DNA from: an uncultured Bacillota bacterium
Lineage (GTDB): Bacteria > Bacillota_I > Bacilli_A > RF39 > UBA660
Direction of reading: 5' to 3'
NCBI GenBank assembly: GCA_947650795.1
Contig: CANSWR010000011.1
Location: 1 to 35,110 of the forward strand
Length of the DNA stretch: 35,110 bases
The notes beneath the pieces are model-generated. The model made no database searches. It was not told the origin of the DNA and saw nothing but the letters and a program-made list of their open reading frames with translations. A program made the position numbers and the translations under genes. This document shows positions 1,346 to 34,264 of this stretch, piece after piece. How positions within the stretch are numbered: the first letter of the stretch is position 1; every line of letters begins with the position of its first letter.

Positions 1346-2353
1346 TTATTTTAGTTTTTCCACCTCCTCAATTAATTTTTGAATTGGAATATGAGTATAT
1401 GTATTATCAGTTAAATCAGAAATGGCATGTCCCATTATTAGTTTTCTACATAAGTCATCCATTCCATGCAATTTTGCGAGAGTAGCAAAGGTATGCCTCG
1501 TGTCGTATGGTATATATATTTCTTCTAAATCTAAGTTATTAAGAGATTTATCAAAATTCTTTTTAAAAGCTTTATAAGAAATCCTTTTTCCTTTTGTTAA
1601 TTCAAATAAATATGTTTCGTTACTCTTGTAATGCTTTTTTATTATTGCTTTTATTTTAGAATGTATAGGAATAATTCTATCTTTTCCTGCTTTAGTCTTT
1701 GAACCAGTTTTTAAGTAATTATCTTCTAAGAAAACATTTTCTTTTTTTAAAGTTAAAAGTTCGTTTGTTCTAGCACCTGTATATATATAAACAAGAATGA
1801 TGTCTATAAAATAATTATTTGAGTTTTTATTAATTGCCTCTAAATCTTTGTCAGAAATATTCTTGTGTAAGTTAGATTCACTCTTTGAACCTATATATAC
1901 GTCCTTAGCGTAATTTTTCTTGACTCCTAGTTCTATTTCTTCAGCATACTTAAATAAAGTCGTAAAAACGATTTTTATATATGATTTACTTGTATAACTT
2001 AAATTACACTCGTCTATTAGGTTTTGAATGTCTTGTTTACGTAAAGTTGCAAAAATCCTACTATGCAAAGATTTTGAATGAACATAAAATGCAGTTTTAT
2101 AGTTGTTTTTTGAACTTTGGGACTTATTATAAGTAGGAATCCATTTCTCAAATAACTCAAGAACTGTTAGTTTAGAATTATCAACATTATAGGGATTACT
2201 TAAATAACTATCTAAAAATTCGATTGCTTGTCTAGGTTTAGCAAAAGTATTAATTACAGTTTGTTTGCCATTTACAGTAACTGCTACAGCATAAGGTTTT
2301 CTTCTCTTGCCAGACAGTTTATAAACACTTCCCATTCCATTTGCTCTTTTCAC
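1346..2353 (-). CDS. int: phage tyrosine recombinase (integrase)
   Basis: 335 residues, the usual length of Tn916/phage-type integrases. It would catalyse site-specific integration and excision at the tRNA-Lys site. The N-terminus (about 1-55, GMGSVYKLSGKRRKPYAV) looks like an arm-binding domain. A SAM-like core-binding region follows at about 60-150, then the catalytic domain: Arg in GARTNELL, RHT in YDTRHTFATL, GH in LIMGHA and the nucleophile Tyr in NTYTH. The first His of the usual HxLRH block is Tyr here (YDTRH). The start is GTG, preceded by AAGGAG. The gene ends about 60 bp from the scar, as expected. Confidence 0.93.
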   Translation of the reverse strand: MKRANGMGSVYKLSGKRRKPYAVAVTVNGKQTVINTFAKPRQAIEFLDSYLSNPYNVDNSKLTVLELFEKWIPTYNKSQSSKNNYKTAFYVHSKSLHSRIFATLRKQDIQNLIDECNLSYTSKSYIKIVFTTLFKYAEEIELGVKKNYAKDVYIGSKSESNLHKNISDKDLEAINKNSNNYFIDIILVYIYTGARTNELLTLKKENVFLEDNYLKTGSKTKAGKDRIIPIHSKIKAIIKKHYKSNETYLFELTKGKRISYKAFKKNFDKSLNNLDLEEIYIPYDTRHTFATLAKLHGMDDLCRKLIMGHAISDLTDNTYTHIPIQKLIEEVEKLK

Positions 2354-6964: not shown

Positions 6965-7016
6965 ATTATTATACACCTCTCATATAAAGTGTCGTGTCGC
7001 GTGGTACGCGACTACG

Positions 7017-7739
7017 TCACTTCTTTTCTATATTAAAATTGTTTTTTATATCTTCTAATGATAAAGACAGATTGAAATAAGGATCACTCTCAAAATATGG
7101 TTCTACTTCAACTAACTTATTCATATATTTAGTATCATAACTATTAAATACTTTCTTATATCTAAAAAATTTAAACTTACATGAAAAATCATAAACACAA
7201 TCTTCTTTTTTTACTTTAGTACTTTTACCATAATCATCAAAATTATAATAAACATCATACTTAAATAAACATACACCAATAAAAGGAATCTTAATAAACT
7301 TTTTAATTTTATAAAATTCATCACACAGTACTCTAACTTGTTTAACCAAACGACTAGGGTGCTGACACACTACATAAATATCTTTAATACCGAAATGCCT
7401 ATGAAACTGAAATGTCTTTGAAATCTCTTTAGGAAAATCTTTATAATCTAAACTGTCAATTACACTATGAAATTCATCAAATATATAAATACTATCCGGA
7501 ATATGCTTTTTAAACACTTTAAAATCATTTATACTTACTTTTCTTGAATATATATTCTTATTTTTTTTATTATTTCTAACTTTATAATTAGTTAACTTAA
7601 CAGGAAAATTAGTAAAAACATTATTAATTTTAAACTTTCTTTTAAATCTATTTTCTTTCTTATATTTTTTCTTTGCTATATAAGTACAAAATAATGTCTT
7701 ACCTGTTCCTGGAACTCCTCCAACAAATATTACACTCAT
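7017..7739 (-). CDS. Zot/pI-like morphogenesis ATPase
   Basis: 240 residues. The P-loop GVPGTGKT is at residues 8-15 and the Walker B IYIFDEFH at about 82-89; SRLVKQVRVLCDEFYKI follows, as in the zonular-occludens-toxin/gpI family. That family drives assembly and extrusion of filamentous phage at the inner membrane. A clear C-terminal membrane helix is not seen. It is preceded by the 57-aa gene (stop and start 1 bp apart) and followed by Rep. This is the strongest marker that the element is a filamentous phage. Confidence 0.92.
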   Translation of the reverse strand: MSVIFVGGVPGTGKTLFCTYIAKKKYKKENRFKRKFKINNVFTNFPVKLTNYKVRNNKKNKNIYSRKVSINDFKVFKKHIPDSIYIFDEFHSVIDSLDYKDFPKEISKTFQFHRHFGIKDIYVVCQHPSRLVKQVRVLCDEFYKIKKFIKIPFIGVCLFKYDVYYNFDDYGKSTKVKKEDCVYDFSCKFKFFRYKKVFNSYDTKYMNKLVEVEPYFESDPYFNLSLSLEDIKNNFNIEKK

Positions 7740-7913
7740 TTATTTAACCTCAAAATAATCAATTCTTTTAATATGTTCAAATGTAGTACAATATATATAA
7801 CCTATAGTATGATATATATCATAAGTTTCAACAATTCTTTCTTCAACAACATAATCATTTACCATAATATTATATTTTCTTATAAATAACTTATATTTTT
7901 TAATTTTAGTCAT
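7740..7913 (-). CDS. small protein, 57 aa
   Basis: ATG at 7913 follows AAAGGAT. The TAA ends 1 bp before the Zot start. The product is basic at the N-terminus (MTKIKKYKLFIRKYN) with a Tyr-rich centre and no membrane helix. It is part of a run of tiny genes between the pIII-like protein and Zot. Function unknown. Confidence 0.6.
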   Translation of the reverse strand: MTKIKKYKLFIRKYNIMVNDYVVEERIVETYDIYHTIGYIYCTTFEHIKRIDYFEVK

Positions 7914-7961
7914 TATTATAACAATCCTTTCATATTAATTTCTATATTCTTTAAATATTCA

Positions 7962-8153
7962 TTAAAAATAATCATCGATAAATTCAAAATATAATTTTTT
8001 CCATTTTTTATTATAAAATTTTACTTCATAAGTATATGGTCCAACACACTCTATAGTGTTTATTATATCTGATATAAAATTATCAAAATTATTATAGAAA
8101 ATAACTTCTCCATTATATAAAAATTTAATAGAAGCTTTATAACTATAACTCAT
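7962..8153 (-). CDS. small protein, 63 aa
   Basis: MSYSYKASIKFLYNGEVIFY..., aromatic-rich and soluble, ending FEFIDDYF. It begins a few bases after the end of the 53-aa membrane protein gene. It resembles the 55-aa protein at 8310-8477 in size and beta-like composition. No family recognised. Confidence 0.6.
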   Translation of the reverse strand: MSYSYKASIKFLYNGEVIFYNNFDNFISDIINTIECVGPYTYEVKFYNKKWKKLYFEFIDDYF

Positions 8154-8158
8154 TTACA

Positions 8159-8320
8159 TCAACTCCTATCTTTTATATTACTTTCTAAATTCTTTAAATC
8201 TTTATTTAATTTTCTTATAGAAAATAAATCAATAATAGTATCTATTAATAAACGTGCAATATAACAAAAACCAATAATTAATATAAAGAATACAATAAAA
8301 CCTAAAAACTTAAACACCAT
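8159..8320 (-). CDS. small membrane protein, 53 aa
   Basis: MVFKFLGFIVFFILIIGFCY gives one strong membrane helix at about 4-26, followed by a basic helical tail (SIRKLNKDLKNLESNIKDRS). Its start overlaps the end of the 55-aa gene (8310-8477) by 11 bp. Size and topology fit a minor coat or assembly protein of a filamentous phage. That role is inferred. Confidence 0.6.
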   Translation of the reverse strand: MVFKFLGFIVFFILIIGFCYIARLLIDTIIDLFSIRKLNKDLKNLESNIKDRS

Positions 8321-8477
8321 TTATTTCACTAACTCCAATCTTTTCTACATAATCAATTTTATAAGTAAAATTACAAGTATCATTTTTACTTATATATTCT
8401 CTAGCTAAATCTAAAGTATCAAATAAACCAATAAAGCCAGCAAGCAAACCATACTTATTTTTATATAATAAATACAT
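8310..8477 (-). CDS. small protein, 55 aa
   Basis: ATG at 8477 lies just after a GGTGGTG site. The sequence MYLLYKNKYGLLAGFIGLFD then DTLDLAREYISKND resembles short single-domain phage proteins with a beta-hairpin and one helix. It overlaps the next membrane-protein gene, so it is probably co-translated. Function unknown. Confidence 0.55.
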   Translation of the reverse strand: MYLLYKNKYGLLAGFIGLFDTLDLAREYISKNDTCNFTYKIDYVEKIGVSEINGV

Positions 8478-8490
8478 AAAACACCACCAC

Positions 8491-9321
8491 CTATCTAAAT
8501 AACATACTTATACCTTTATAAATAAACTTTAATAATATATAACAACAGAAACCTAAAAAACCTAAAAATAATATATTAAACAATAATGTAACCACTAATT
8601 TTTCAAAATCCGTAAATGTACTTAAATCAAATAATTCCAATACTTTGAATTCTTGTATATCTTCAAAAGTATAAAATAAATAAAAATCTTTTACTGGAGG
8701 AATTACCAAACTTTTATCAATCTCTTTAAATGAATAAGTTACCTCAAAAGGTGTTAAACTAAAATATTTTTCCATCTCTGGCAAAATCCAATCAGTAATA
8801 CTAAAGCTAAAATTAGAAACAAAATTTTCAATAACATATTGATAAGTACCGTCTTCTAAATAAGCAATCATTTGATTATCACTAGCATAATTTAAATGTG
8901 GGACTATTAAAGAATAATGATTATCTTTTATATTTGAACGATTATTTTTAAAGAAAGAAAAATGAACTCTTCCAAGTTTATCATCAAAATTTTTATTAAA
9001 AGTAACAAAATCTTGACCATCTTTTATACTTCCAGAAGAATAAAAATTGTCTATTAATTCATAAGTAATACTTTTATAATCAATATAAATAATCTTGCCT
9101 TTTAAATCTTCATTAAGAGGAATAGGTATATAATCAGATAATAATGATTCTCCTAAATAATATTTATCATTAACTTTATAAATCTTATCAATTGTTTCTG
9201 CACTTGCAGTTGGCAAAGATTCTAACTCTATTATTTCATAATCAAAATAGTTTTCTTGAGCATTAGCACCAGGAATAAATATAAATAGACTCATTAATAA
9301 TAATACAACTTTATATTTCAT
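8491..9321 (-). CDS. secreted, C-terminally anchored protein, pIII/attachment-like candidate
   Basis: 276 residues. A signal peptide (MKYKVVLLLMSLFIFIPGANAQ, cut probably after ANA) is followed by an external region of about 220 residues, a membrane helix near 247-268 (LLFNILFLGFLGFCCYILL) and a basic end (KFIYKGISMLFR). This topology is that of filamentous-phage minor coat/adsorption proteins, which stay anchored until assembly. No family match is recognised in the ectodomain. It follows the 136-aa membrane protein in the operon. Confidence 0.75.
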   Translation of the reverse strand: MKYKVVLLLMSLFIFIPGANAQENYFDYEIIELESLPTASAETIDKIYKVNDKYYLGESLLSDYIPIPLNEDLKGKIIYIDYKSITYELIDNFYSSGSIKDGQDFVTFNKNFDDKLGRVHFSFFKNNRSNIKDNHYSLIVPHLNYASDNQMIAYLEDGTYQYVIENFVSNFSFSITDWILPEMEKYFSLTPFEVTYSFKEIDKSLVIPPVKDFYLFYTFEDIQEFKVLELFDLSTFTDFEKLVVTLLFNILFLGFLGFCCYILLKFIYKGISMLFR

Positions 9322-9325
9322 AAAA

Positions 9326-9736
9326 TCACCATTCTCGTCCTTTTAATCTATGAGTAGCTACAACACTAAAATTAGCTGGTCTAGTTTTTTCTCTTTTACC
9401 AGTTTTTGGATTAAATTTTCTATAAGAACTAACACTCCTTGTAACAACTTTATCTGGAAAAGTAGTTACATAATTAACTTTCACAGATTCATTAACATAA
9501 TTAAGTTTATCTCGTTTATTTTCAATATTAGTAAATTTTTCATTTAAAATAGAACCCATTCTTAAAGTAGTATCAATATTATAATTACCAAAAGTTAAAA
9601 ATGAAATTAACCAACCAAGTAAACCAAAACCAATTATAAAATGTAATAAACTTAAATTGCCTAAAATATAAAAATTTAAAGCAAAAGAAGTAACTTGACC
9701 AATTTTTTCAAAAATCCAATAAATAATTTCTAACAT
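9326..9736 (-). CDS. membrane protein, 136 aa, candidate minor structural/assembly protein
   Basis: Two hydrophobic segments (about 10-30 and 30-50) are followed by a polar, basic C-terminal half (RSVSSYRKFNPKTGKREKTRP) ending LKGREW. The start overlaps the end of the 56-aa coat-like gene region (ATG 2 bp from its TAG). The order coat-like peptide, this protein, anchored secreted protein mirrors the structural block of filamentous phages. The exact role is unknown. Confidence 0.7.
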   Translation of the reverse strand: MLEIIYWIFEKIGQVTSFALNFYILGNLSLLHFIIGFGLLGWLISFLTFGNYNIDTTLRMGSILNEKFTNIENKRDKLNYVNESVKVNYVTTFPDKVVTRSVSSYRKFNPKTGKREKTRPANFSVVATHRLKGREW

Positions 9737-9737
9737 A

Positions 9738-9908
9738 CTACCACCTCAATAACTTCTTAAAAAACATAAAGAAACTATATACAACCATTAAGAATAAAAA
9801 AGCAAAAACTACAGCAACTATGTCATAAAGAAATGACATACTAGGAGATAAATCTCCTATAATCATAATAGCTAATTCTTTAAATGTAACTATATCTAAA
9901 AACAACAT
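9738..9908 (-). CDS. coat-like one-span peptide, 56 aa
   Basis: ATG at 9908 follows a good AAAGGAG site. The N-terminus carries acidic residues, a long hydrophobic helix spans about 29-50 (IVAVVFAFLFLMVVYSFFMFF), and the end is basic (KKLLRW). That is the layout of a filamentous coat or minor coat subunit (pVIII, pVII or pIX). With the 67-aa protein at 12948-13151 there are two coat-like candidates; which one is major cannot be told here. Confidence 0.7.
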   Translation of the reverse strand: MLFLDIVTFKELAIMIIGDLSPSMSFLYDIVAVVFAFLFLMVVYSFFMFFKKLLRW

Positions 9909-10010
9909 ATTAATGCTCCTTTCGTAAACTAAGCCTGTAAAGACTTAATTTATTTTAATTATTTTTTATAAATAAATGATAGAATAAAAATCAAGAAAAG
10001 AGGAATGTAT

Positions 10011-10295
10011 ATGGAAACTATAATAATAATTGGAATAATAATTTTTATATTTATATCTCCTGGTATAATTTTCAATAAAGAAACGGAAAACTTAAAAGAC
10101 ATTGAAAATTTAAAAAAAATAGAAAATAGAGAACTTAATATTGTAGAGCTTAATTATTATCAATTAAAAGAATTAATGAAAATTAGAAAAATGATAAGAT
10201 TTATTTTAACAACTGTTATAATAACATTCATAATCAAAATCATTTTACCAATTTTAGGTATATCAAGTATAATAGAAATATTTAATAATTTTTGA
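10011..10295 (+). CDS. two-span membrane protein encoded against the operon, 94 aa
   Basis: The start is ATG 10011 rather than 10005, because AAGAGG then has normal spacing. A hydrophobic helix lies at the N-terminus (METIIIIGIIIFIFISPGII) and another near 63-84; between them is a charged Lys/Glu/Asn region. It is the only plus-strand gene inside the structural block and ends base-to-base against the convergent pIII-like gene. Independent transcription and small membrane-protein form suggest an immunity, superinfection-exclusion or host-fitness gene; this is inference from context. Confidence 0.7.
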   Translation: METIIIIGIIIFIFISPGIIFNKETENLKDIENLKKIENRELNIVELNYYQLKELMKIRKMIRFILTTVIITFIIKIILPILGISSIIEIFNNF

Positions 10296-11885
10296 TTATA
10301 AAATAGATGTTATAATCTTCAAAATTAATACTATAGCAGATATTATAAAAACAAATATTAAAACACTTTGAATTTCTAATGGAAGATTATTTAGTAAACT
10401 AGAAGATAAAGAAACAATATACCCAGAAGCTTCAACAAATGTAGAACTTAATCCTTTAAGACCACTAATTAAATTAGGTGCATTAAAATCTAAAAAATCA
10501 ATACTATTTCCTTGATTTATATTTTCTGGATCTGACCATTGACTATTATTAGAACCTTCAATAGTAATTGTATTGCCACTATTAGGATTAGTATATTCAA
10601 TGGATTCATTATTAATTTGAGCTTTATAACAGTTGGGATTATAAATAACCTGCCTAATAAATTTATTATCTTTAGCCCAAAATCTATAACTAAACTTAAT
10701 AAAATCTTCATCATTAAGAATTTTAAAATCTCCAGTTGAACTATCAATAACTTTAACCAAAGGATTAATAAGAATATTAGAAAATTCTTTGGTTTTATAA
10801 ATAGAATAATAACTACCTAAATAACCAAACTTATCATCATTTGAAATTGTATGATAATAAACATTAAACTCATCAGTATAATTAGAATAAACATATAATC
10901 CGTAGTCCTTTAAAGTACAATTTTTAATAGGATAAAGACTAACATTAGAAGATAAAGAAAAATCTGCAGTTTTATAGTTACTAGGAATTTTATTTTCATT
11001 TTGATAATAAAATAATACATTTAGAAGAGACTTAAATCCAACTTTTTGACTAATAATAGGATTTTTCAAAAGATAATCTAAACCAGATGAAGTTGCAATA
11101 TTATCTTCATTAAAGCATTTATTTTTTATACAAAGATTTTGAGCATATAAAGTAACGTAAGGAGAATTAATATTATATGTTTGTGAACTTTTATAAAATT
11201 TACTATACAATAAAGCAAAATCACTACCATCATAAGTCTCTGAACCGAAAATCCACCAACCAGAACTTAACCAATTATAACTAAACTTATATTTTTCTGG
11301 AAATTCAACTAAAGCTGCAAAACGAGTTGATATTTTATGAGGTTCAAATCCCATAACATAATAGTTATAATCAAACTCATAACTTAAAAAATTAGAACCA
11401 TTAAACCAAAAAATATATACATCTCCATTATTTTGAGTATCAAGAAAATTAACATTAGCATAAATAGAATTATTCTCATTTTTAAAATAATAAGAAGAAA
11501 CATAATTTCTAAACATTACAATCGCATGAGTAGCATTATCTGGAATAACAAATTTATCTTCATTAATAGCATTAAAATAATCTATTTCACTAGCAGTATA
11601 AATTAAAATATCAGAGTTTAAAGAAGAAAAAGTTTTACTAATTAAGCCACCTAAATAACTTTCTATATCATAACCAATAAATTCTAACATTTTATAAAAA
11701 TCTGTTTTTTCACTTTTCTCTTTAAAATAATTAAAAACTACTGTATCATTCCAAGGTAAAACTTTTTTAAGAGAAAGTGTACCATCAGATATATTAACAC
11801 CATAAGTATTAGAAATAGCATTTATATTAAAAGAAAAAATGAAAAAACATACTAACAAAGTAAACGTTAAATATATCTTTTTCAT
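10296..11885 (-). CDS. large secreted, C-terminally anchored adsorption protein (pIII-like)
   Basis: 529 residues. The signal peptide is MKKIYLTFTLLVCFFIFSFNINA. A long external region follows, rich in Asn, Ser, Tyr and Phe with paired cysteines (for example LCIKNKCF). Near 440-455 is an Asn/Gly-rich linker, then ISGLKGLSSTFVEASGYIVSLSS, and a terminal membrane helix at about 505-525 (VLIFVFIISAIVLILKI). Topology, size and position fit the receptor-binding minor coat protein gpIII. Upstream lie a strong hairpin and an AGAGAGG site. No ectodomain family is recognised. Confidence 0.8.
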   Translation of the reverse strand: MKKIYLTFTLLVCFFIFSFNINAISNTYGVNISDGTLSLKKVLPWNDTVVFNYFKEKSEKTDFYKMLEFIGYDIESYLGGLISKTFSSLNSDILIYTASEIDYFNAINEDKFVIPDNATHAIVMFRNYVSSYYFKNENNSIYANVNFLDTQNNGDVYIFWFNGSNFLSYEFDYNYYVMGFEPHKISTRFAALVEFPEKYKFSYNWLSSGWWIFGSETYDGSDFALLYSKFYKSSQTYNINSPYVTLYAQNLCIKNKCFNEDNIATSSGLDYLLKNPIISQKVGFKSLLNVLFYYQNENKIPSNYKTADFSLSSNVSLYPIKNCTLKDYGLYVYSNYTDEFNVYYHTISNDDKFGYLGSYYSIYKTKEFSNILINPLVKVIDSSTGDFKILNDEDFIKFSYRFWAKDNKFIRQVIYNPNCYKAQINNESIEYTNPNSGNTITIEGSNNSQWSDPENINQGNSIDFLDFNAPNLISGLKGLSSTFVEASGYIVSLSSSLLNNLPLEIQSVLIFVFIISAIVLILKIITSIL

Positions 11886-11918
11886 TTCTAATCGACCTCT
11901 CTTTTTATGGTAGATAAC

Positions 11919-11943
11919 TCAATGAAATATAACATTTCATTGA
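11919..11943 (-). other. 10-bp hairpin in the leader of the pIII-like gene
   Basis: TCAATGAAAT (11919-11928) pairs perfectly with ATTTCATTGA (11934-11943) around 5 nt. It sits about 35 nt before the start of the pIII-like gene with no T-run, so it is more likely an RNA stability or translation element than a terminator. Confidence 0.6.
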
Positions 11944-11978
11944 TATAAACCATTTTAATTTTTATTTAATTAGTATCA

Positions 11979-12024
11979 AGGGTTGCCCTACGGCGTATTG
12001 CTACGCTTGCCCCTTGACACTAAT
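11979..12024 (-). promoter_or_regulatory. strong hairpin between coat block and pIII-like gene
   Basis: ATTAGTATCAAGGG (11979-11992) pairs over 14 bp with CCCTTGACACTAAT (12011-12024). The single imperfect pair is a G-U wobble on the minus strand but a mismatch on the plus strand, so the minus-strand form is selected. A smaller GCGTA/TACGC hairpin sits in the loop, and AAGTGCC/GGCACTT follows at about 12030-12044. Ff phages have a strong central terminator at this place, between coat gene and gene III. Lack of a T-run makes RNA processing or packaging-signal roles equally possible. Confidence 0.6.
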
Positions 12025-12041
12025 ATTTAAGTGCCTGGCAC

Positions 12042-12218
12042 TTATCTTACGTTACTAAAAGGGTCTTGTGCCTTTTCAATAACTTCAATATTATTTTCAA
12101 ACTTATCATATATCAAATCTTGTAATTTTCTACTTCTAAATACAAAAATTAAAAAGAATATTAAACATACATTAAGTGATATACTTATTCCTAACAATAA
12201 ACATAATATACTAATCAT
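12042..12218 (-). CDS. small membrane protein, 58 aa
   Basis: The ATG at 12218 overlaps the end of the preceding gene by 8 bp. The product has one long hydrophobic helix (MISILCLLLGISISLNVCLIFFLIFVF) and a basic/acidic tail (RSRKLQDLIYDKFENNIEVIEK). It is probably a membrane-held assembly or minor coat protein, by context only. Confidence 0.6.
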   Translation of the reverse strand: MISILCLLLGISISLNVCLIFFLIFVFRSRKLQDLIYDKFENNIEVIEKAQDPFSNVR

Positions 12219-12498
12219 TTTTATTAACACTTTCTAACTTAGAACGATAAGATTCGCATTCGCCCAAAATATAATTATTCTCCAAATAATATTCAACACA
12301 ATAAGTTTCTGTATTACTATTACCATGTTTCTCTAAGTATTTAATTCTTTCACTTAAAGAAGAACAAACTAAATGACATACAAATAATAATAAAATAAAT
12401 AAAACAAATAAGATAAAAATGGGAGTTTCATAATCAGAAGAATTAAACTCTAAAGATTCTAATCTTTCATTAATTCTTGTTAAGTCACTTTTCTTCAT
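12211..12498 (-). CDS. membrane protein, 95 aa
   Basis: The start is set at the ATG of MKKSDLTRINERLE (12498), 5-6 nt after AGAGGT and overlapping the end of the 93-aa gene. A short polar N-terminus precedes one hydrophobic helix (about 27-48, TPIFILFVLFILLLFVCHLV), then a cysteine-containing polar tail. It belongs to the coat-side gene cluster. Function unknown. Confidence 0.6.
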   Translation of the reverse strand: MKKSDLTRINERLESLEFNSSDYETPIFILFVLFILLLFVCHLVCSSLSERIKYLEKHGNSNTETYCVEYYLENNYILGECESYRSKLESVNKND

Positions 12499-12766
12499 TA
12501 ATACCTCTAACAAAACTATATTGGTCTACTAATGTTCTTGAAATAAAACATAAATGTTTGTTAACAATTTTAATAGCTGCTTTAAATTCATAAAAAACAG
12601 ATTCACTTATAACTTCTTTAGTAAGATAATATCTTTTTAAAAACTCTTCATAAGTTAACAATTCTATATAAAACTCATATGCAAATAAATCAATACTACC
12701 AGCTAAAACCCTTTCTCTAATACTTCTCAAATTTTCTTTTACTTCTTCTAAACTTAATTCTTTCAT
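12485..12766 (-). CDS. hypothetical soluble helical protein, 93 aa
   Basis: MKELSLEEVKENLRSIRERV... is mostly helical, without signal or membrane helix. Its ATG overlaps the stop of the preceding 44-aa gene (ATGA). It lies directly downstream of the major coat candidate in the same operon. No family recognised. Confidence 0.65.
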   Translation of the reverse strand: MKELSLEEVKENLRSIRERVLAGSIDLFAYEFYIELLTYEEFLKRYYLTKEVISESVFYEFKAAIKIVNKHLCFISRTLVDQYSFVRGINEEK

Positions 12767-15246: not shown

Positions 15247-15618
15247 TTACCTCTTTTCTAAATCGCATATTTCTTTTTTGATACATTTTATATATTCATC
15301 AGCCTCATCTTCTAAATCATTCCTACAACACATTAATAAATAATCTTTATTACATTGTTCCAATTGACATAATTCAATGTGCGCTAATTCATGTATAATA
15401 GTATCCTTAATCTTCTTCTTTGACTTGTATTTATTAATTATTACTGTATATATACCTCTATATAATAAAACGTATCCATTAACTTCTGGAACTAATTTTG
15501 TGTAGAGTTTTTTTGCGTTATAATAATTTAACAAATCTTCGTCAGTAATAACCCCCATAAGTACATTTTTAATATTCATACCTAACACCTCACAATCGTT
15601 AAGTATCTCTATAAGCAT
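15247..15618 (-). CDS. ImmA/IrrE-type metallopeptidase
   Basis: 123 residues with the zinc-binding HELAH motif (about 75-79) and downstream Glu/Asp (LEDEADEY) typical of ImmA. Family members cleave the CI/ImmR-type repressor and so lift lysogenic repression, as in ICEBs1. It is just downstream of the repressor gene (5 bp gap), the standard pairing. A paired acidic region and Cys residues near the end are not diagnostic. Confidence 0.88.
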   Translation of the reverse strand: MLIEILNDCEVLGMNIKNVLMGVITDEDLLNYYNAKKLYTKLVPEVNGYVLLYRGIYTVIINKYKSKKKIKDTIIHELAHIELCQLEQCNKDYLLMCCRNDLEDEADEYIKCIKKEICDLEKR

Positions 15619-15623
15619 ACTTA

Positions 15624-15980
15624 TTATTCTTTACCATCCAATTCCTTATCAATTTCATTTATGATTGATTTAGTAACATTGATTATAACTTTTTGTTTTT
15701 CTTCTGATAAGTCACTTATTTGACTAAATAGAATATCTAGTTCTTCAGTTTTTTTCTTCTTTTCGCGATTTTCTATTAGATCTGATTTTTCTATATTGAA
15801 ATAATTTGCTAACATTTCAATTTTATCTATTCTTGGATATGCAGTACCATTAGTCCATTCTCTAACTGTTGTATAATTAAAATCTAAGTCACTACAAAGC
15901 TTATTTCTATCAACATTATTTATTTTCATATAGTAATTTAAGTTGTCGGCAAATATTTCTTTATTTCCTAAATCGCTCAA
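15624..15980 (-). CDS. CI/ImmR-like phage repressor
   Basis: An HTH_3 domain spans about 12-65 (NVDRNKLCSDLDFNYTTVREWTNG), followed by a helical tail, about 118 residues in all. I place the start at TTG 15980 (MSDLGNKEIFADNL), 8 nt after AAAGGGG; the GTG at 15989 lies inside the ribosome site. No peptidase domain is present, so control by the neighbouring ImmA is likely. Its promoter (TTGTTT-17-TATAAT, minus, 16035-16007) overlaps operator 16011-16025. Confidence 0.88.
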   Translation of the reverse strand: MSDLGNKEIFADNLNYYMKINNVDRNKLCSDLDFNYTTVREWTNGTAYPRIDKIEMLANYFNIEKSDLIENREKKKKTEELDILFSQISDLSEEKQKVIINVTKSIINEIDKELDGKE

Positions 15981-18755: not shown

Positions 18756-20066
18756 ATGTATAACAAGTTAACACCAATAGAGCAAGTAGAAAGAGAATTA
18801 ATAGCATTAATATTTAACAAAAATGAAATTGTAGACTTATTACAAATTAAACCTAAATATTTACTAACTAAAATAAACGAAAAAATTTTAGAAGAAATGA
18901 TAGTGTGTTATAAAAAGCATAAGATAATTAATTTAACATTAATGGATGGACTTAATACAGCAGAACTTGTAGAAACTTCTATAGATATTATTGACTGTGA
19001 TATGTACTACTTAAATGATTGGGAAAGACAATTACAATGTGCACAAGAACAAATACTTAATAGGTATAAAGAAAAAGTAATAAAAGACTTATTCAAAGAA
19101 TTAGAAGTAGGAAAAGTTAATTATGAAGAATATCAAGACAAAATGGATAAGATAGGAAAAATTCAAATAACATCTACAAATAGCAACAGAATGAAAACTA
19201 TCAATGATATAGATACTACTTATGAAGAAAAAACTTACATCAGGTCAGGATGTGATTATCTTGATAAAAAAATGAAAGGTTTTGCATTAAGTCAGTTAAG
19301 TGTGTGGAGTGGTTCTAATGCTTCAGCAAAATCTACTTACTTAAATCAAATAGCGCTTGAAAGTATTAAACAAGGTTATAAGGTTGGAATATTTAGTGGC
19401 GAACTTACAGACAAAGATTTACTAAGTTGGATTACATTAAACGCAGCGGGAAAAGATAACATAAAGCAGAATGAAGAAAAGGGATACTATTATGTATTCA
19501 AAACTATCAAAGAAAGAATACTTAAATGGTTAAATAACAAATTATTCATTTATAACAACGATTATGGAAATGATGCAAGAGAAATATTGCAAAGTGTTGA
19601 AAACTGTGTAAATAAGAACGATGTAAAAGTTTTGATACTTGATAATTTAATGGCAATGAATTTATCAAAGTTTGGAGACCAAAAATATGATATGCAAACC
19701 AAATTAATAACTGAACTAAGCGCAATGGCTAAAAGATTAAATGTACATATTCACTTTGTATGCCATCCAAGAAAATCAACTGCATTTTTGAGAAAGATAG
19801 ATATATCAGGAAGTGCTGATTTAACTAATATAGCTAATAATGTACTGATTATGCACAGAGTAAATAGTGATTTTAAAAAAAGTTTTCGTGATTGGGCAAA
19901 TTTAAAAGAAAATGAAGATCATCCAATATTTCATTATTCAAATGTTATTGAAATATGTAAAAACAGAGACCTTGGAATACAAGATGAAATGATAGGTTTA
20001 TATTTTGAGCAAGGTAGTAAGAGATTATTAAATTATCAAGGAGAGGAAAAAGATTATGGTTATTAA
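18756..20066 (+). CDS. replicative DNA helicase, DnaB/RecA-like fold
   Basis: 436 residues. The N-terminal helical domain (about 5-110) is DnaB-like (EQVERELIALIFNKNEIVDLL). A RecA-type core begins at about 160: Walker A region SGSNASAKSTYL (about 184-195), Walker B VLILDNLMAMN (about 294), the SAMAKRLNVHIHFVCHPRKS segment and the SGSADLTNIANNVLIMHR motif of the DnaB/Twinkle group. The usual GK of Walker A is AK here. It would unwind the phage fork after loading by the DnaD-like initiator directly upstream. Confidence 0.9.
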   Translation: MYNKLTPIEQVERELIALIFNKNEIVDLLQIKPKYLLTKINEKILEEMIVCYKKHKIINLTLMDGLNTAELVETSIDIIDCDMYYLNDWERQLQCAQEQILNRYKEKVIKDLFKELEVGKVNYEEYQDKMDKIGKIQITSTNSNRMKTINDIDTTYEEKTYIRSGCDYLDKKMKGFALSQLSVWSGSNASAKSTYLNQIALESIKQGYKVGIFSGELTDKDLLSWITLNAAGKDNIKQNEEKGYYYVFKTIKERILKWLNNKLFIYNNDYGNDAREILQSVENCVNKNDVKVLILDNLMAMNLSKFGDQKYDMQTKLITELSAMAKRLNVHIHFVCHPRKSTAFLRKIDISGSADLTNIANNVLIMHRVNSDFKKSFRDWANLKENEDHPIFHYSNVIEICKNRDLGIQDEMIGLYFEQGSKRLLNYQGEEKDYGY

Positions 20067-20163: not shown

Positions 20164-20364
20164 ATGTATGAACAAATAGACCCACCAGAAAGCAAAGATA
20201 AATGTTATGCAATCTTGGTTGAAGTAAGTGCAGCAGCAGAAGTAATAGTATATGCAGAAGATGTGAAAGAAGCAAAAATGAAAGCACTAGCAAATATTTA
20301 TGAAGAAATAGATATAAAAGAAATAGAAGTAGAAGATATTTTAAAAATAGAGGAGATGGAATAA
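20164..20364 (+). CDS. hypothetical protein, 66 aa
   Basis: MYEQIDPPESKDKCYAILVE..., acidic, with a beta-strand-rich start (CYAILVEVSAAAEVIVYAED) and a helical end (EEIDIKEIEVEDILKIEE). Its last base overlaps the ATG of the next gene. It sits directly upstream of the candidate variable protein. No family recognised. Confidence 0.65.
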   Translation: MYEQIDPPESKDKCYAILVEVSAAAEVIVYAEDVKEAKMKALANIYEEIDIKEIEVEDILKIEEME

Positions 20365-20984
20365 TGATAGAAGAGAGATTAAGAAAATTAGAAGAAAAAG
20401 TATTTGGAAAAATAACACTAAAAAAAGGAGACTATGTAGAAATAGGTGGAATCTTATTTAGATGTTATAACGAAAAACAAAGACTATGTACAACAGTAGA
20501 AGAACTAACTGAAGAAGTAGTACAAAACAGTGCTGAACAAAACGGAACAGTAAATAAAAAATGTATAAAAGAAAATAGAGTAATGTTTAACTCAAATGTA
20601 ATAGACGGTGAATACGGAAGTAGTGTAATTAGAAAAGTATTACAAGGTTTTGAAAAGAAATATTTAGATACATCAAAGCTTAGAAATGTTTACGGAAAAG
20701 ATAGTGTAAGATTACTTAAAAAAGAGGAAATAGCTGAGTTAGGCGAAGAATTACATAGAAGTATAGAACACTGGTATTGGACTATGAGTTATCGCTCTAG
20801 CGATTCCGACACTTGGGCGAACGTGTTCATTGTGTGTGGTTCTGTTTATCCTGGCCGCTTGGATAGCGCGTACGTCCTTAGCACTGATGGAGTCGTTCGT
20901 CCAGTAGTGTCTTTGAAATCTAATGTACTACTAACTGGTGATGGTTCAAAAGAAAATCCATATTTAATAAAAAGTGAAAGTTAA
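20364..20984 (+). CDS. DUF6273-like C-type-lectin-type protein, candidate hypervariable (DGR target)
   Basis: 206 residues. A short coiled coil (MIEERLRKLEEKVFG) is followed by a GDYVEIGGILFRCYN strand and a DUF6273-like C-terminal domain, with YWTMSYRSS... and the closing motif GVVRPVVSLKSNVLLTGDGSKENPY. Related gut-phage proteins have Asn-rich variable stretches between YW and GVRP. Here that stretch (about 134-180) is encoded by DNA with very few A and mostly C/T-ending codons, unlike the rest of the gene, as expected if template AAY codons had been mutagenised. A 9-bp hairpin follows the gene. No signal peptide is seen; the location in the early operon is unusual. Confidence 0.72.
   Translation: MIEERLRKLEEKVFGKITLKKGDYVEIGGILFRCYNEKQRLCTTVEELTEEVVQNSAEQNGTVNKKCIKENRVMFNSNVIDGEYGSSVIRKVLQGFEKKYLDTSKLRNVYGKDSVRLLKKEEIAELGEELHRSIEHWYWTMSYRSSDSDTWANVFIVCGSVYPGRLDSAYVLSTDGVVRPVVSLKSNVLLTGDGSKENPYLIKSES
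20771..20910 (+). other. candidate variable region of a diversity-generating retroelement
   Basis: Counted by eye over 20791-20910, A is 18 of 120 and G+C 63 of 120, while flanking coding DNA is dominated by A. The compositional step is abrupt at both ends. Codons such as CGC, TCT, AGC, GAT, TCC, GAC, ACT, GGC, GTC end in C or T almost throughout, the trace left when AAC/AAT template codons are changed at their adenines. Confidence 0.6.
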
Positions 20985-20988
20985 AATA

Positions 20989-21010
20989 GTTGAGAGAACC
21001 ATCTCTCAAC
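20989..21010 (+). other. 9-bp stem, 4-nt loop hairpin downstream of the variable gene
   Basis: GTTGAGAGA (20989-20997), loop ACCA, TCTCTCAAC (21002-21010). No T-run follows, so it is not a normal terminator. In the Bordetella phage system a 7-10 bp stem with a 4-nt loop just downstream of the variable region is needed for target recognition. This hairpin has that geometry, though not the same loop sequence. Confidence 0.6.
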
Positions 21011-21227: not shown

Positions 21228-21503
21228 ATGGAAAATAAAAAAGGACTTACAAAAGAAATATGGGAATTAGACTCAAATAAGATGTATGTAATAGATGATT
21301 TTGGGAATATTTTTGAAGATGATTACGATTATTCAAAATATATTGAAAATGATTATGAAGGAATAGAAGATGGCCTAGAAAATTGGATATCTGAAATGTG
21401 TGAAAAAACTTCATTAGAATTTGGTTCAACATTAATAAAAAAAGAAATAGACACTTTAAAGGATAATATAGAATTTTATAAGGAGAGATTAAAACAATGC
21501 TAA
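21228..21503 (+). CDS. hypothetical acidic protein, 91 aa
   Basis: It begins at the base after the previous stop. It is highly acidic in its first half (DDFGNIFEDDYDYSKYIENDYEGIEDG) with a helical, coiled-coil-like C-terminus. Acidic proteins beside annealing proteins sometimes act as DNA mimics or nuclease partners. No direct evidence here. Confidence 0.6.
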   Translation: MENKKGLTKEIWELDSNKMYVIDDFGNIFEDDYDYSKYIENDYEGIEDGLENWISEMCEKTSLEFGSTLIKKEIDTLKDNIEFYKERLKQC

Positions 21504-22144
21504 AAAAATATGAAGAATTAAGGAAAGTTGATGTAAGTAAGTATGTTGACAAACGTGATGGCTGTGATTATCTTAACTGGGCGAAAGTGGTGGATTTACT
21601 TCATGAAAATGGAGCAGAGAAAGTATATTTTGAACCAGTAGTAAATAAACAGACAGGAAGTAGTTTATTTATGACTGAGCAAGTATTTACTGATAGTAAA
21701 AATAACACTAATAGAGTATATGAAACTGCCGTAAAAATAGTAATAGATAATATAGAATTTATACAAAGAGGACCAGTAACAAATGGATCTAATCCAGTTA
21801 AAGATAATTCAATGAGTCAGCAAAGATTATGGAATTGTCAAACAAGATTATTTGTAAAAGGTGTTGCAATAAGAACTGGTTTAGGCTTTGATTTATGGTT
21901 AAAAGAAGAAGATAGAAACGAAAAAGATGACTGGGAAAATGATTTGACAAAACACAATATCATAAAAATAGCTGAAAGAGTAAAAGAAAAACTAACATCT
22001 AAAATGCAATTAGGATTAACTTTTGAAGAAATAGCAGAACAGTTGAATACTGATTCGGATGGATTAAAAGCTTATCTAAGTTATTATAATATTTTAAGTA
22101 AATTAGAAATGGCACTTGATAAAATTGATAAAAAACAAGGATAG
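21497..22144 (+). CDS. DUF1071 (Sak3-like) single-strand annealing protein
   Basis: 215 residues, with a 7-bp overlap with the preceding gene. Family hallmarks: VDVSKYVDKRDGCDYLNWAKVVDLL at the start, FEPVV, TAVKIVIDN, then QQRLWNCQTRLFVKGVAIRTGLGFDLW. Such proteins anneal single strands in phage recombination and usually pair with a nuclease, here the YqaJ-like gene that follows. The C-terminal portion is helical and lysine-rich. Confidence 0.82.
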   Translation: MLKKYEELRKVDVSKYVDKRDGCDYLNWAKVVDLLHENGAEKVYFEPVVNKQTGSSLFMTEQVFTDSKNNTNRVYETAVKIVIDNIEFIQRGPVTNGSNPVKDNSMSQQRLWNCQTRLFVKGVAIRTGLGFDLWLKEEDRNEKDDWENDLTKHNIIKIAERVKEKLTSKMQLGLTFEEIAEQLNTDSDGLKAYLSYYNILSKLEMALDKIDKKQG

Positions 22145-22733
22145 AACTGGATATATTGGTGCATCAGATACAAAGTTTGTTATAGGAAACTGGAATACAA
22201 AAACATTTAGAGATTGGTGGCTAGAGAAACTAGGAGTTACAAATAGACATTTTGGCAACAAATTTACAATGGCAGGAACTAACTATGAACATAAAATAAT
22301 TGATGCACTTAATATACCTAGCATAGAAAAAGATAAGCAAATAATAATTGGAAAATTAAGAGTTAATTTAGATGCTAATACAAAAGAGAAAATACATGAA
22401 ATAAAGACTTATCAATATGAGAAAGGTTTTGATATAAAAAAACATAAAGATTATATAAACCAAGTCCAAGTTCAAATGTATGTAAGTGGTATTTATAGTG
22501 CTGAGATAGATGCCTATGGATTATTAGAGAGTGATTATAAAAACTATTTTAATGAAATTGATTTAGATAGGTTATCTAAACATGAAATAGAATATGATAA
22601 AGACTTTATTAACAACACTTATTTACTTAGAATAACATATTTAACTTATTGCTTAGAAAAAGGCAAATTTCCAAATATAGAAGATATGGAGAGTGAAGCA
22701 TGGAATATACAGGAAAAGTACAAGACTTCATAA
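22116..22733 (+). CDS. YqaJ-type (lambda exonuclease fold) nuclease
   Basis: 205 residues with the ordered motifs of the viral recombinase exonuclease: TGYIGASDTKFVIGN (near 11-25), FTMAGTNYEH (Glu near 56), then Asp-Asn in VNLDAN and IHEIKTYQ (catalytic ExK) and INQVQVQMYVSGI. It would resect double-strand ends to feed the annealing protein. The start is a TTG (22116 or 22125), overlapping the annealing protein gene; no good ATG exists, so the N-terminus is uncertain. Confidence 0.82.
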   Translation: MIKLIKNKDRTGYIGASDTKFVIGNWNTKTFRDWWLEKLGVTNRHFGNKFTMAGTNYEHKIIDALNIPSIEKDKQIIIGKLRVNLDANTKEKIHEIKTYQYEKGFDIKKHKDYINQVQVQMYVSGIYSAEIDAYGLLESDYKNYFNEIDLDRLSKHEIEYDKDFINNTYLLRITYLTYCLEKGKFPNIEDMESEAWNIQEKYKTS

Positions 22734-27010: not shown

Positions 27011-28216
27011 ATGGAAGATTTAAAAATATTTACCAAAAATATAGAAGAAACAGCAAAGCAACAAATAGACTTGTTGTTGAAACAAAAAGCATTTAAAGAT
27101 TGTAAAATAAGAATAATGCCAGATGTTCATGCTGGAGCAGGATGTGTTATTGGCTTTACTGGTAATTTAGGAGATAAAGTAATACCTAATATCGTAGGAG
27201 TTGACATTGGTTGTGGAATACTATGTGTAGAACTTGGTAATATTGAAATAGATTTAAAAAGATTAGATGAAGTTATCCATAAATTTGTTCCTAGTGGTAT
27301 GAATGTACACAAAGAACAAAGATATAAATTTATTGAAATGGAACAATTATATTGTTTAAAAGAGTTAAAAAATAAAGATAATTGGTTAGAAAAAAGTTTA
27401 GGTACTCTTGGAGGTGGGAATCATTTTATAGAAGTAGATGTTGATAATGATAATAATAAATATTTAGTTATACATACTGGTTCAAGAAATTTAGGTAAAC
27501 AAGTAGCTGAAATATATCAAAATAAAGCTATAGAAAACTGTTCTTATAAAGAAGAAATGAAAAAAGAAATAAACGATACTATTAATTCACTTAAAGAACA
27601 AGGTAAGCAGCAAGAAATACAACAATCAATAATTGATATACATAAAAAATATGAAGGTAAAACTAAATTACCAAAAGATTTATGCTATTTAGAAGGAAAA
27701 TTAAGAGAAGATTATTTACATGATATGAAACTATGTCAAAAATTTGCAGTTAAGAATAGGAACGAAATAGCAGACAATATAATGTATCATTATTTCGGTT
27801 CATGTGAAAGTCCATACAAAGATAGATTTGAAACAATACATAACTACATATCATTTGAAGATAATATTGTTCGTAAAGGTGCAATCTCAGCTAAGAAAGG
27901 TGAACGAGTACTAATTCCAATGAATATGCGTGATGGTTGTATTATTGGAATAGGGAAGGGCAATGAAGATTGGAACTGCTCAGCTCCTCATGGAGCAGGT
28001 AGAATAATGTCAAGAAATCAAGCAAGAGAAACTCTTGATATAGAAGAATATAAAAATTCTATGCAAAACATTTATACAACATCAGTTAATGAAGAAACAA
28101 TAGATGAAGCACCATTTGTTTATAAACCAATGCAAGAAATAATTGATTGTATAGGAGATACTGTTGAAATAAAAAGAATTATAAAACCAATTTATAATTT
28201 TAAAGCTAATGAATGA
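27011..28216 (+). CDS. rtcB: RtcB-family RNA ligase
   Basis: 401 residues, a normal length for compact RtcB. Motifs in order: MPDVHAGAGCVIG (metal site, about 36), VGVDIGCGILC (metal Cys, about 62), GTLGGGNHFIEVD (about 134), HTGSRNLGKQVAE (about 156), and SAPHGAGRIMSRNQA (about 327-341) with the His that becomes guanylylated. RtcB joins 2',3'-cyclic-phosphate or 3'-phosphate to 5'-OH RNA ends with GTP and Mn. In a phage it could repair tRNAs cut by host anticodon nucleases. All key residues appear intact. Confidence 0.93.
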   Translation: MEDLKIFTKNIEETAKQQIDLLLKQKAFKDCKIRIMPDVHAGAGCVIGFTGNLGDKVIPNIVGVDIGCGILCVELGNIEIDLKRLDEVIHKFVPSGMNVHKEQRYKFIEMEQLYCLKELKNKDNWLEKSLGTLGGGNHFIEVDVDNDNNKYLVIHTGSRNLGKQVAEIYQNKAIENCSYKEEMKKEINDTINSLKEQGKQQEIQQSIIDIHKKYEGKTKLPKDLCYLEGKLREDYLHDMKLCQKFAVKNRNEIADNIMYHYFGSCESPYKDRFETIHNYISFEDNIVRKGAISAKKGERVLIPMNMRDGCIIGIGKGNEDWNCSAPHGAGRIMSRNQARETLDIEEYKNSMQNIYTTSVNEETIDEAPFVYKPMQEIIDCIGDTVEIKRIIKPIYNFKANE

Positions 28217-31096: not shown

Positions 31097-31462
31097 ATGG
31101 CTAATATAGAAAATTTAAAACCAATTAAAACACTAAGCAGCGAAGAAGCAAAGAAAAGAGGGTCTAAAGGAGGAAAAGCAAGTGTAAAAGCAAAAAGAGA
31201 AAGAAAAGCTATGAGAGAGCAATTAGAAATGCTATTAAATTTGCCCATAAAAGATATCAAGATACAAAAGAAAGTAACTGATTTAGGCATATCATCGAGT
31301 GAAATAAATAATCAAATGGCTATGACAGTTGCATTATATCAAGAAGCATTACTAGGAAACACAAAAGCTTACGAATTAATTAGAGATACAATAGGAGAAA
31401 AACCTGTAGAACAAGTTAAAAACTTGAATCCGCCAGTAATAAACATAGAAAGGCCAAAATGA
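31097..31462 (+). CDS. small terminase subunit candidate / DNA-packaging protein
   Basis: 121 residues from ATG 31097 (after AGGTGG). The KKRGSKGGKASVKAKRERKAMREQLEMLL block and the EINNQMAMTVALYQEALLGNTKAYELIRDTIGEKP helix match phage proteins that stand before large terminases and act as small subunits. It overlaps the large terminase gene by 4 bp. Confidence 0.75.
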   Translation: MANIENLKPIKTLSSEEAKKRGSKGGKASVKAKRERKAMREQLEMLLNLPIKDIKIQKKVTDLGISSSEINNQMAMTVALYQEALLGNTKAYELIRDTIGEKPVEQVKNLNPPVINIERPK

Positions 31463-32736
31463 TAAATCCTTATGGATTGATAGCAAAACACTTCTATGAT
31501 TTATTAGATGATGTTTTAAATAATAAACATACTCATTACTGGTTAAAAGGAGGACGTGGAAGTACAAAGTCAAGTTTTATAGGAATTGTAATCCCACTTT
31601 TAATGATGATAGATGCTCAAAACGGAATACATTCTAATGCAGTAGCTCTTAGAAAAGTCGGAGATACTTTAGCGGATAGCGTTTATACTCAAATATTATG
31701 GGGGATTGAACAATTGGGAGTATCTGATTATTGGGAAGCAAAAGTAAGTCCGTTAAAACTAATTTATACGCCTACAGGCCAAGAAATAAGATTTAGGAGT
31801 GCTAATAATAAAGATGATCATAGAAAGATAAAATCGACAAAATTTAAAAAAGGTTTTTGTAAATATGTATGGTATGAAGAATTAGATGAGTTCTTTGGTA
31901 TGCCAGAGATAAGAAACGTTAATCAGTCTTTGCTAAGAGGCGGTACTGGATATAAAGTATTTTATTCATATAATCCACCTAAGATGTTATCAAATTGGGT
32001 AAATACAGAAGTAATAATTGAAAGAAAAGACAGATTTGTACATTCTAGCACTTATTTAGATATTCCTCCTGAATGGCTAGGAGAAGAGTTCTTTATAGAA
32101 GCTAATACATTAAAAGAACAAGATGAACTAGCTTATAGAAATGAATATTTAGGAGAGGCCACAGGAACAGGTGGGGCAGTATTTACAAATATAACATTAA
32201 GGCCTATAACAGAAGAAGAAATAAAACATTTTGATAATATAGCAGATGGAATAGACTTTGGATATGCAGTAGATCCAGCATGCTATGGTCAAAATCATTT
32301 TGATAAGACGAGAAAACGTCTTTTTATTTTTAATGAGATTTATAAGATAAACTTGTCTAATAGAAAGTTGTGGGAAGAAATAGTTAAAATCAAAATCGGT
32401 AGTTCACATATAACTGCCGATAGTGCAGAACCTAAAAGTATAGAAGAGCTTAATTCTTATGGTAAGTTAAAAGTTAAAGGAGCGAAAAAAGGTCCTGATA
32501 GTGTAGAATTTGGGATAAAGTGGTTACAAGATTTATTTGAAATAATTATAGATCCAGAAAGATGTCCTAACACTGCTAGAGAGTTTAAAACATACGAGTA
32601 TGATAAAGACAAATATGGTAATTTTATAAGCAAATTCCCTGATATAAACAATCATAGTATAGATATGACAAGATATTCAAGAGAAAATGATATGAAATAT
32701 AGTAAATCTAAATTTGGTTATACAAAAATAGTATAG
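31459..32736 (+). CDS. terminase large subunit, PBSX type
   Basis: 425 residues. The ATPase N-half has Walker A GGRGSTKSS (about 29-37) and Walker B KYVWYEELDEF (about 135). The RNase-H-like nuclease half has GIDFGYAVDPAC (about 268), ADSAEPKSIEELN (about 318) and INNHSIDMTRYS near the end. It cuts concatemers and pumps DNA into the prohead. The Thr in STKS (instead of Gly) is common in PBSX-type enzymes. It is full length. Confidence 0.95.
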   Translation: MINPYGLIAKHFYDLLDDVLNNKHTHYWLKGGRGSTKSSFIGIVIPLLMMIDAQNGIHSNAVALRKVGDTLADSVYTQILWGIEQLGVSDYWEAKVSPLKLIYTPTGQEIRFRSANNKDDHRKIKSTKFKKGFCKYVWYEELDEFFGMPEIRNVNQSLLRGGTGYKVFYSYNPPKMLSNWVNTEVIIERKDRFVHSSTYLDIPPEWLGEEFFIEANTLKEQDELAYRNEYLGEATGTGGAVFTNITLRPITEEEIKHFDNIADGIDFGYAVDPACYGQNHFDKTRKRLFIFNEIYKINLSNRKLWEEIVKIKIGSSHITADSAEPKSIEELNSYGKLKVKGAKKGPDSVEFGIKWLQDLFEIIIDPERCPNTAREFKTYEYDKDKYGNFISKFPDINNHSIDMTRYSRENDMKYSKSKFGYTKIV

Positions 32737-32749
32737 GAGGTAAGATAAA

Positions 32750-34264
32750 ATGTTACAATATAATAAAGATTATATGATTAATCCATTAAACATATCTAAC
32801 ATTTTAGAAGATGCTAAACCTGAATGGGAAAAAAGAAAAAAACTATATAAAATGAAAGTGAGAAAAAATAAACCTTCGGATTTAGTCGCAGAAAGTGATA
32901 GTGAGATGAAAGAACCATTTGAGGCTGTTATTTCTAATATGGTAAATGGTTACGTAGGTGGAAAAGCACCTAAATACCAAGTGGAAGAAATGCCTACAAA
33001 AGAAAAACAAAATATTCTTATAAAGTTATTTAACAAAGTATTTAATAAAAATGGAAACGTAAGAAAAGAATATCAAATATTCATAGATTATATAAGGGAT
33101 TACAATGATGATCCTTTTTTCTATTTTAATTTAATTCAAAGTTATAATGATATGACAGCAGCTTATGGAATATATTATGAAAATAATAACAATGAAATAG
33201 TATATGCTAATGTTGATGCAAGACAGACAATAGCAATATATGATTATTCTACACCAGTTAACAAAATAGGATTACTGAGACATTGGCAAGAAAAAGATTC
33301 TAATGGCGAAGAGTTTGATGTAGTAGTATTAATTACTAAAGAGTATAAATATCATTATAGAAATAGTAAATTACAAGCAAAAGATTTTTATGAAGAAGAA
33401 GGAAAGAGAGAAGATTGTAACTGGGGATGTGTTCCATGTATAGCAATTGAAAATCCTGACGGTTTAGCATGTTTTGAACTGTCAAAACCCAATATATGTG
33501 CTTATGAAAGAAATATGAATAATGCCAAAAACACATTTCAATATAATGACGATGCTAAACTAATGGTAACAGGGTATTCTCCAAATGAAGATACCTTAAT
33601 AGAAGAAAAAGATGAAAATGGAAAAATAGTTTATGAAGAAAATGGAGAACCTAAATGGATTAAAAATAAGAAAAGACAAAAAGAAGATGAACTAGTATTA
33701 CAAGCACCTGTATTTTATGCCGAAGAAGGTGGAGATATCAAATGGGTAGAAAAAAATATTAATGATGCTGCTGTGCAAAATTATAGAAAAACTCTAGTTG
33801 ATTTAATATTTATGTTTAGCAATTGTCCGAATATTAATGATCTAGGTTTTACAAATGCTGATAATAGTTCGGCACTTGAAAAGAAGTTTTTTCCTTTAGA
33901 ACAATCTATAACTTATTTAGATAAAACTATTAGAAAAGAATTACTTGCTATGTGGGAAGCTTTTACAGAAAGAATAAATTTAAAAAAAGGAACTAAATAT
34001 GACTTTAGAAATTTAAAAATAACATTACAAAGAAATATGCCTACAGACAAAAAGGCCGAAACTGATAGGGTTCTTTCATTACAAGGTGTTGTTTCTAATG
34101 AAACGCTTTTAAATATGTTACCAGATGAGTTAGACGCATCTAGTGAACTTGAAAAAATAAAAAAACAAAATGACGAGATGTTAGAAGAAAATATGAAAAA
34201 AATAGAAGCATTTAGAAATGGAGAGAAAGAAGAGACAGAAGAAACAGAAAAGCAGGTGTTGTAA
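32750..34264 (+). CDS. portal protein, SPP1 gp6 type
   Basis: 504 residues, the normal size. EPFEAVISNMVNGYVGGKAPKYQ, a YNDMTAAYGIYYE stretch, DARQTIAIYDYS and the helical KKFFPLEQSITYLDKTIRKEL region are typical of the Phage_prot_Gp6 family. It forms the dodecameric vertex ring through which DNA enters. The gene has an AGGAGG site 14 bp after the terminase stop and ends in a Glu-rich tail. Confidence 0.93.
   Translation: MLQYNKDYMINPLNISNILEDAKPEWEKRKKLYKMKVRKNKPSDLVAESDSEMKEPFEAVISNMVNGYVGGKAPKYQVEEMPTKEKQNILIKLFNKVFNKNGNVRKEYQIFIDYIRDYNDDPFFYFNLIQSYNDMTAAYGIYYENNNNEIVYANVDARQTIAIYDYSTPVNKIGLLRHWQEKDSNGEEFDVVVLITKEYKYHYRNSKLQAKDFYEEEGKREDCNWGCVPCIAIENPDGLACFELSKPNICAYERNMNNAKNTFQYNDDAKLMVTGYSPNEDTLIEEKDENGKIVYEENGEPKWIKNKKRQKEDELVLQAPVFYAEEGGDIKWVEKNINDAAVQNYRKTLVDLIFMFSNCPNINDLGFTNADNSSALEKKFFPLEQSITYLDKTIRKELLAMWEAFTERINLKKGTKYDFRNLKITLQRNMPTDKKAETDRVLSLQGVVSNETLLNMLPDELDASSELEKIKKQNDEMLEENMKKIEAFRNGEKEETEETEKQVL

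Follow-up and report, generated by a model that had tools for sequence, protein, structure and literature searches.

The question raised by this locus is why one short stretch of a phage gene has so little adenine and so much G+C, and by what route such a stretch could have been rewritten. The window, i.e. the whole analysed DNA of 35,110 nucleotides (contig CANSWR010000011.1 of an uncultured Bacillota bacterium), contains a temperate phage, and the patch most probably represents the variable region (VR) of a target of a diversity-generating retroelement (DGR). The phage has no reverse transcriptase (RT) of its own, and in the reading that we favour (probability about 0.8) a host DGR acts on it in trans with arrays of templates. 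The following features of the window are relevant:

1346..2353, minus strand: integrase (phrog_1, 7.8e-42)
18756..20066, plus strand: phage DnaB-like helicase (phrog_239, phrog_19)
20364..20984, plus strand: probable DGR target gene of the temperate phage (206 aa, phrog_9958-like)
20784..20888, plus strand: variable region, with low A, C/T-ending codons and the framework common to the array units
20889..20902, plus strand: GGAGTCGTTCGTCC, the constant 3' end of the VR, common to the array units
20989..21010, no strand assigned: hairpin GTTGAGAGA-ACCA-TCTCTCAAC with a 9-bp stem and the 4-nt loop ACCA
21497..22733, plus strand: phage Sak-like annealing protein and RecE-like exonuclease (context)
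31459..34264, plus strand: phage terminase large subunit and portal (context)

The base composition was first described in the original prediction, which had counted 18 A and 63 G+C over 20791-20910 and had noted almost only C/T-ending codons. Both claims held, the first one exactly. The 120 bases consist of 18 A, 35 G, 28 C and 39 T (G+C 63/120). When 3,967 other coding 120-mers of the same strand of the window were used as controls, their A fraction had a mean of 0.444 and a minimum of 0.275 and their G+C reached 0.433 at the top; not one of the 3,967 approached A <= 0.15 or G+C >= 0.525. Within 20787-20903, 31 of 39 codons end with T or C, and in the remainder of the gene 100 of 168 codons end with A. 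The sequence GGAGTCGTTCGTCC was found within one mismatch at 77 places of the genome and its reversed control pattern at none. Its position at 20889..20902 would correspond to the initiation-of-mutagenic-homing site, which is inferred from sequence alone. Since the window VR shares this constant end and the framework VF.V.GS..PG.L....V with the array units, it fits a DGR target.

On one side of the target gene is the gene of the replicative helicase, and on the other are those for Sak/RecE recombination. The temperate phage has the integrase, the DnaB-like helicase, the Sak-like and RecE-like recombination genes, an SSB, the terminase and the portal, and no RT was found on its contig. The gene was absent from IMG/VR and from the GenBank phages when both were searched. 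Two phage homologues were detected (L069:8287-8892 and L155:10829-11524). The former lies in another prophage of the window genome, distinct from that of the window (contig C22, phrog_9958). The latter belongs to a temperate phage of the sister genome G001 (C3:30000-48000) with a module resembling that of the window; this phage has three VR target genes (8582-9184, 10829-11524 and 15331-15753) and no RT within the stretch seen. Compared to the C22 homologue, the DNA of the window VR differs at 27/102 positions and the rest of the gene at 122/500, so the VR DNA has not diverged more than the remainder, which counts against the DGR reading; in the VR the amino acid changes are located at AAY-type positions and the framework is unchanged. 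Two further regions of the window were observed. On the minus strand, 5445-12766 looks by eye like the gene set of an integrated filamentous phage, with a replication-type protein, a Zot-like ATPase with the P-loop GVPGTGKT and a large secreted protein, and this is a resemblance only. At 27011-28216, a phage RtcB-like RNA ligase (phrog_1075) is found.

The assignment to a DUF6273-like domain, also part of the original prediction, was not supported for the window protein, for which no Pfam match, DUF6273 included, was obtained. A target protein of a sister genome scored 19.9 bits with DUF6273, under the curated cut-off of 23.5. No sequence match to the window protein was found in the PDB. For a check of the C-type-lectin fold an AlphaFold model was inspected; since its pLDDT was only 34, no fold search was done with this protein.

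The requirement for an RT was then addressed by a whole-genome search, which revealed two enzymes, on contigs C2 and C6. The C6 enzyme contains IGNMTSQ and YMDD and is of the DGR type by motif evidence, without a tree; the marker of DGR RTs is (I/V/L)GxxxSQ in motif 4 together with YxDD (PMC3521204). The gene directly before it is Avd-like by two models, Pfam bAvd (E 1.4e-7) and NCBIfam DivGenRetAVD (3.5e-8), neither of which reached the curated cut-off. The C2 enzyme (L003, 1853-2914) was rejected as a DGR RT because it is retron-like, scoring 232.9 bits with the St85 family model, just under the cut-off. C2 also carries one array, and directly 3' of the DGR RT on C6 a small MutS domain I-like protein is encoded (L004, 6424-6834). 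The DGR RT and Avd are on C6 and template-like units are on other contigs, so the action on the phage gene would come from elsewhere. This supports the original prediction, which had seen no RT or template repeat near the patch; a genome without RT or template would have refuted it, and this check was run and did not do so.

The genome contains about 65 matches to the patch, mostly in tandem series. Six tandem arrays comprise 79 VR-like units, 68 of which match a template-RNA model, with a spacing of roughly 250-420 bp in most cases. The units are not full genes, as the frame usually ends within about 100 bases past the core. A length modulo 3 was kept in 71 of the 73 anchored cores, and 72/73 have no stop in the VR frame. 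As no stop codon has the form NNY, the absence of stops is partly built in and was rejected as a proof of selection on its own, so the reading frame and synonymous changes were added. At framework codons without A, 211/372 changes were at the third position (z 9.6), far above expectation. From the frame, the stop-free cores and the third-position excess it follows that the units carry protein information that was once under selection, either in the unit itself or in the genes of origin.

The prediction of one AAY-rich template copy has to be corrected, as tandem arrays of dozens of units were found instead. A single AAY-rich template repeat (TR) was not detected in the window genome; its units are mostly A-poor and the highest AAY count is 10. 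Across the genus, the A content of the cores falls from 0.39 (G002) to about 0.22-0.23, with 0.23 in the window genome. Some units are mosaics that have half a core in common with others. A 3' polarity of the tracts common to array cores was not established (12 vs 5 at 20 nt, 1 vs 2 at 35 nt), as the pairs were too few. At 9074-10229 of L063 (contig C46) three identical cores (9196, 9869 and 10205) with one different unit between them were observed, which we interpret as a recent tandem duplication at the contig end. A -10-like box precedes 32/50 units, compared to 7 in a background stretch; this is only suggestive because the genome is AT-rich. The assemblies are fragmented drafts and the arrays end at contig ends.

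The units share a putative RNA structure. An inner hairpin in the 3' flank is enclosed by a helix of TTTCTCT and AGAGAAA, and AATATTATCC is the pairing partner of the 5' leader GGATAATATT. Compensatory changes were found for 9 of the 16 pairs in the flank. Genus-wide, all helices scored above every one of 2,000 shuffles. In the window genome alone this was true for the two hairpin helices; the leader-flank helix was not significant there, since 72/2,000 shuffles reached it. The leader had been found with a motif that favours pairing bases, and the shuffle test ignores relatedness. A covariance model had matches in 9/9 genomes of the genus (68 in the window genome, 29 in G001, and 16, 6, 6, 3, 2, 1 and 1 in the others) and one each in two other sampled genomes of the family. 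No Rfam family matched the unit RNA. The sequence itself shows that RT and Avd occur together in one genome, that the arrays exist and that the RNA covaries; the transcription of the units and the binding of their RNA by RT-Avd are inferred, as no expression or activity data exist.

Whether units and genes stand in an adenine-restricted relation was seen in the sister genomes. The G003 gene next to avd-RT differs from the unit L139-1219 at 16 positions, all 16 at template A. For a second G003 gene, paired with another unit, this was 15/15, for a third 19/20, and for a prophage gene of G001 (L155) compared to the host unit L144+11071 it was 13/15. Therefore, different genes pair with different units. 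The copied tracts start with ATGAGTCCG and end with CGTCCAG. That particular units and particular target genes differ by A changes is shown for the sister genomes; in the window genome the relation is not clean. Each of G001 and G003 has roughly 30-35 genes with the variable domain, which is unusually many for one DGR RT.

The same relation was observed between units. Between the neighbouring G001 units L141-2390 and L141-2725 there are 11 differences, of which 10 are at A in L141-2725 and 0 in the reverse direction, and a similar pair in G003 gave 7/8 and 0. L141-2390 represents a copy of L141-2725 mutated at A, and units are targets as well as templates. Such unit-to-unit mutagenesis explains how arrays drift from AAY-rich to A-poor with the constant positions kept. 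In G001, six or seven units are AAY-rich and about 19 A-poor. A gene on C6 that encodes 491 aa has a VR identical to the A-poor unit L302-3118 (C49) at 130/131 positions, with an A in the template against a T in the gene as the sole mismatch. The identity begins with ATGAGTCCG and ends with CGTCCAG, the borders of the VR, and the unit has an RNA flank of its own behind it. Hence, there is an A-poor unit that nearly equals an expressed VR. The transfer probably went from unit to gene; the opposite transfer followed by a single change would give the same picture.

For the window VR itself, an A-only template was not found among the units of the assembly, and in this respect the original prediction was not fulfilled. 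The best unit has 11 mismatches at A and 5 elsewhere, with 2 where the VR has the A. Since A changes alone do not derive the window VR from any unit, the final step for this gene is inferred. Its own template is missing from the assembly, whose arrays extend to the contig ends. The patch is still likely to be the VR of a temperate-phage gene of the kind that is rewritten by a DGR.

The hairpin was predicted as a 9-bp stem with a 4-nt loop 80-100 bp downstream, and it is found at 20989-21010, 85 bases past the VR end. By analogy with BPP-1 (PMC3240598) it is a candidate target hairpin or cruciform. It is unlike that of BPP-1 because the loop is not GRNA and because of the 85 bp distance. The region downstream of the VR was examined in the window, L139, L087 and L170. 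In textbook DGRs of the family, hairpins with an ACCC loop occupy a similar position, and at many host targets a perfect hairpin is absent.

The origin of the arrays can be approached with 80 related loci, mostly from uncultured Bacilli. Their usual layout is a VR gene, one TR about 300 bp further on, avd and RT. These one-TR loci show almost only A changes (e.g. 21/21 and 20/20 at A). Tandem TRs occur in L162 (three), L170 (three) and L194 (two), and the units of L162 have the same RNA layout as the array units. Tandem duplication of a TR followed by dispersal would be the simplest path to the arrays.

In the mechanism that we propose, the DGR would be provided in trans by the host, which has a single Avd and a single DGR RT together with, in place of one TR, small template RNA genes in tandem arrays. 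A unit would begin with a 5' leader, continue with the VR-like core and close with a structured 3' part, with which the leader pairs. RT-Avd would copy the unit, mutating the template adenines, and the cDNA would replace the target VR between ATGAGTCCG and CGTCCAG. That the window gene was rewritten by this route is inferred, as activity data are lacking, and the A-poor units may be a stored repertoire of ready-made variants. A bolder version, which we can neither favour nor discount, is a DGR with a heritable archive. Here, mutated cDNAs would home into template units as well as target genes, and the arrays would store proven variable loops for later copying back into genes of the host and of prophages; new variants would come from AAY-rich units and old ones would be replayed from A-poor units.

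The rival that survives best, although we hold it for clearly less probable than not, regards the arrays as burnt-out templates. After tandem duplication of the TR, self-homing would have eroded the adenines, leaving mostly inactive relics in the window genome, with function retained in just a few AAY-rich ones that may lie in assembly gaps. The unit-to-unit A mutagenesis, the drop of the core A content across the genus and the low maximal AAY count in the window genome are in favour of it. Against it, the A-poor units keep the reading frame, the framework codons and the RNA structure, and one of them matches an expressed gene almost perfectly.

An improbable alternative is antigenic variation by silent cassettes, in which the arrays are DNA donors for a RecA-type gene conversion, as in pilS and vls, and the RT has no part in it or is a historical remnant. 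The A-poor VR-like units, the mosaics and the near-identity of L302-3118 to a gene would agree with this. However, the differences are A-only and one-directional, most array units have a covarying RNA structure, the copied tract stops exactly at the template borders, and relatives have single-TR versions with RT and Avd. The hallmark of silent cassettes, a transfer without base-specific mutation or an RNA intermediate, was not met, given the adenine-restricted differences and the covarying RNA. Finally, that the patch is just a horizontally acquired or selected stretch of other base composition without DGR action is hardly tenable: the lack of a clean template for the window VR would permit it, but the framework and constant 3' end recur at 77 places of the genome and homologous phage and host genes stand in an A-only relation to array units.

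If the preferred reading, a host DGR acting in trans from template arrays, is correct, then tens of template RNAs, roughly 30 target genes in some genomes, prophage targets without RT and rewritten templates would tie random hypermutation to the storage of variants. What is known of DGRs is random mutation from one or few templates, and the question of a DGR memory would become testable. A search confined to the neighbourhood of the RT overlooks most of such a network. The literature that we found describes DGRs with single or few TRs, multiple VRs and targets in trans. Tandem template arrays or A-poor template stores were not encountered in the literature searched (bioRxiv and most subscription papers were outside the scope), and priority is not established.

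Like the canonical DGR of the Bordetella phage BPP-1 type, with VR, hairpin, one TR, avd and RT, the system has an RT with (I/V/L)GxxxSQ and YxDD, an Avd, adenine-directed changes, a constant 3' end and a hairpin past the VR, and canonical one-TR versions occur in related bacteria. It differs in its templates, of which the window genome has 68-79, many of them A-poor, as separate RNA genes arrayed in tandem at a distance from the RT, and in the hairpin loop (ACCA/ACCC here, GRNA in the canonical DGR; PMC3240598). Targets in trans and more than one template per genome are shared with remote-target and multi-TR DGRs: Thiohalocapsa PB-PSB1 has nine DGR loci and 15 targets (PMC10907252), and Yan 2019 found mostly one TR per DGR, with six unique TRs in one atypical case (PMC6642488). 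Neisseria pilS and Borrelia vls are systems of gene conversion from silent cassettes. As in these, arrays of in-frame protein segments feed expressed genes, whereas the units described here encode a conserved structured RNA and their transfer is marked by adenine changes.
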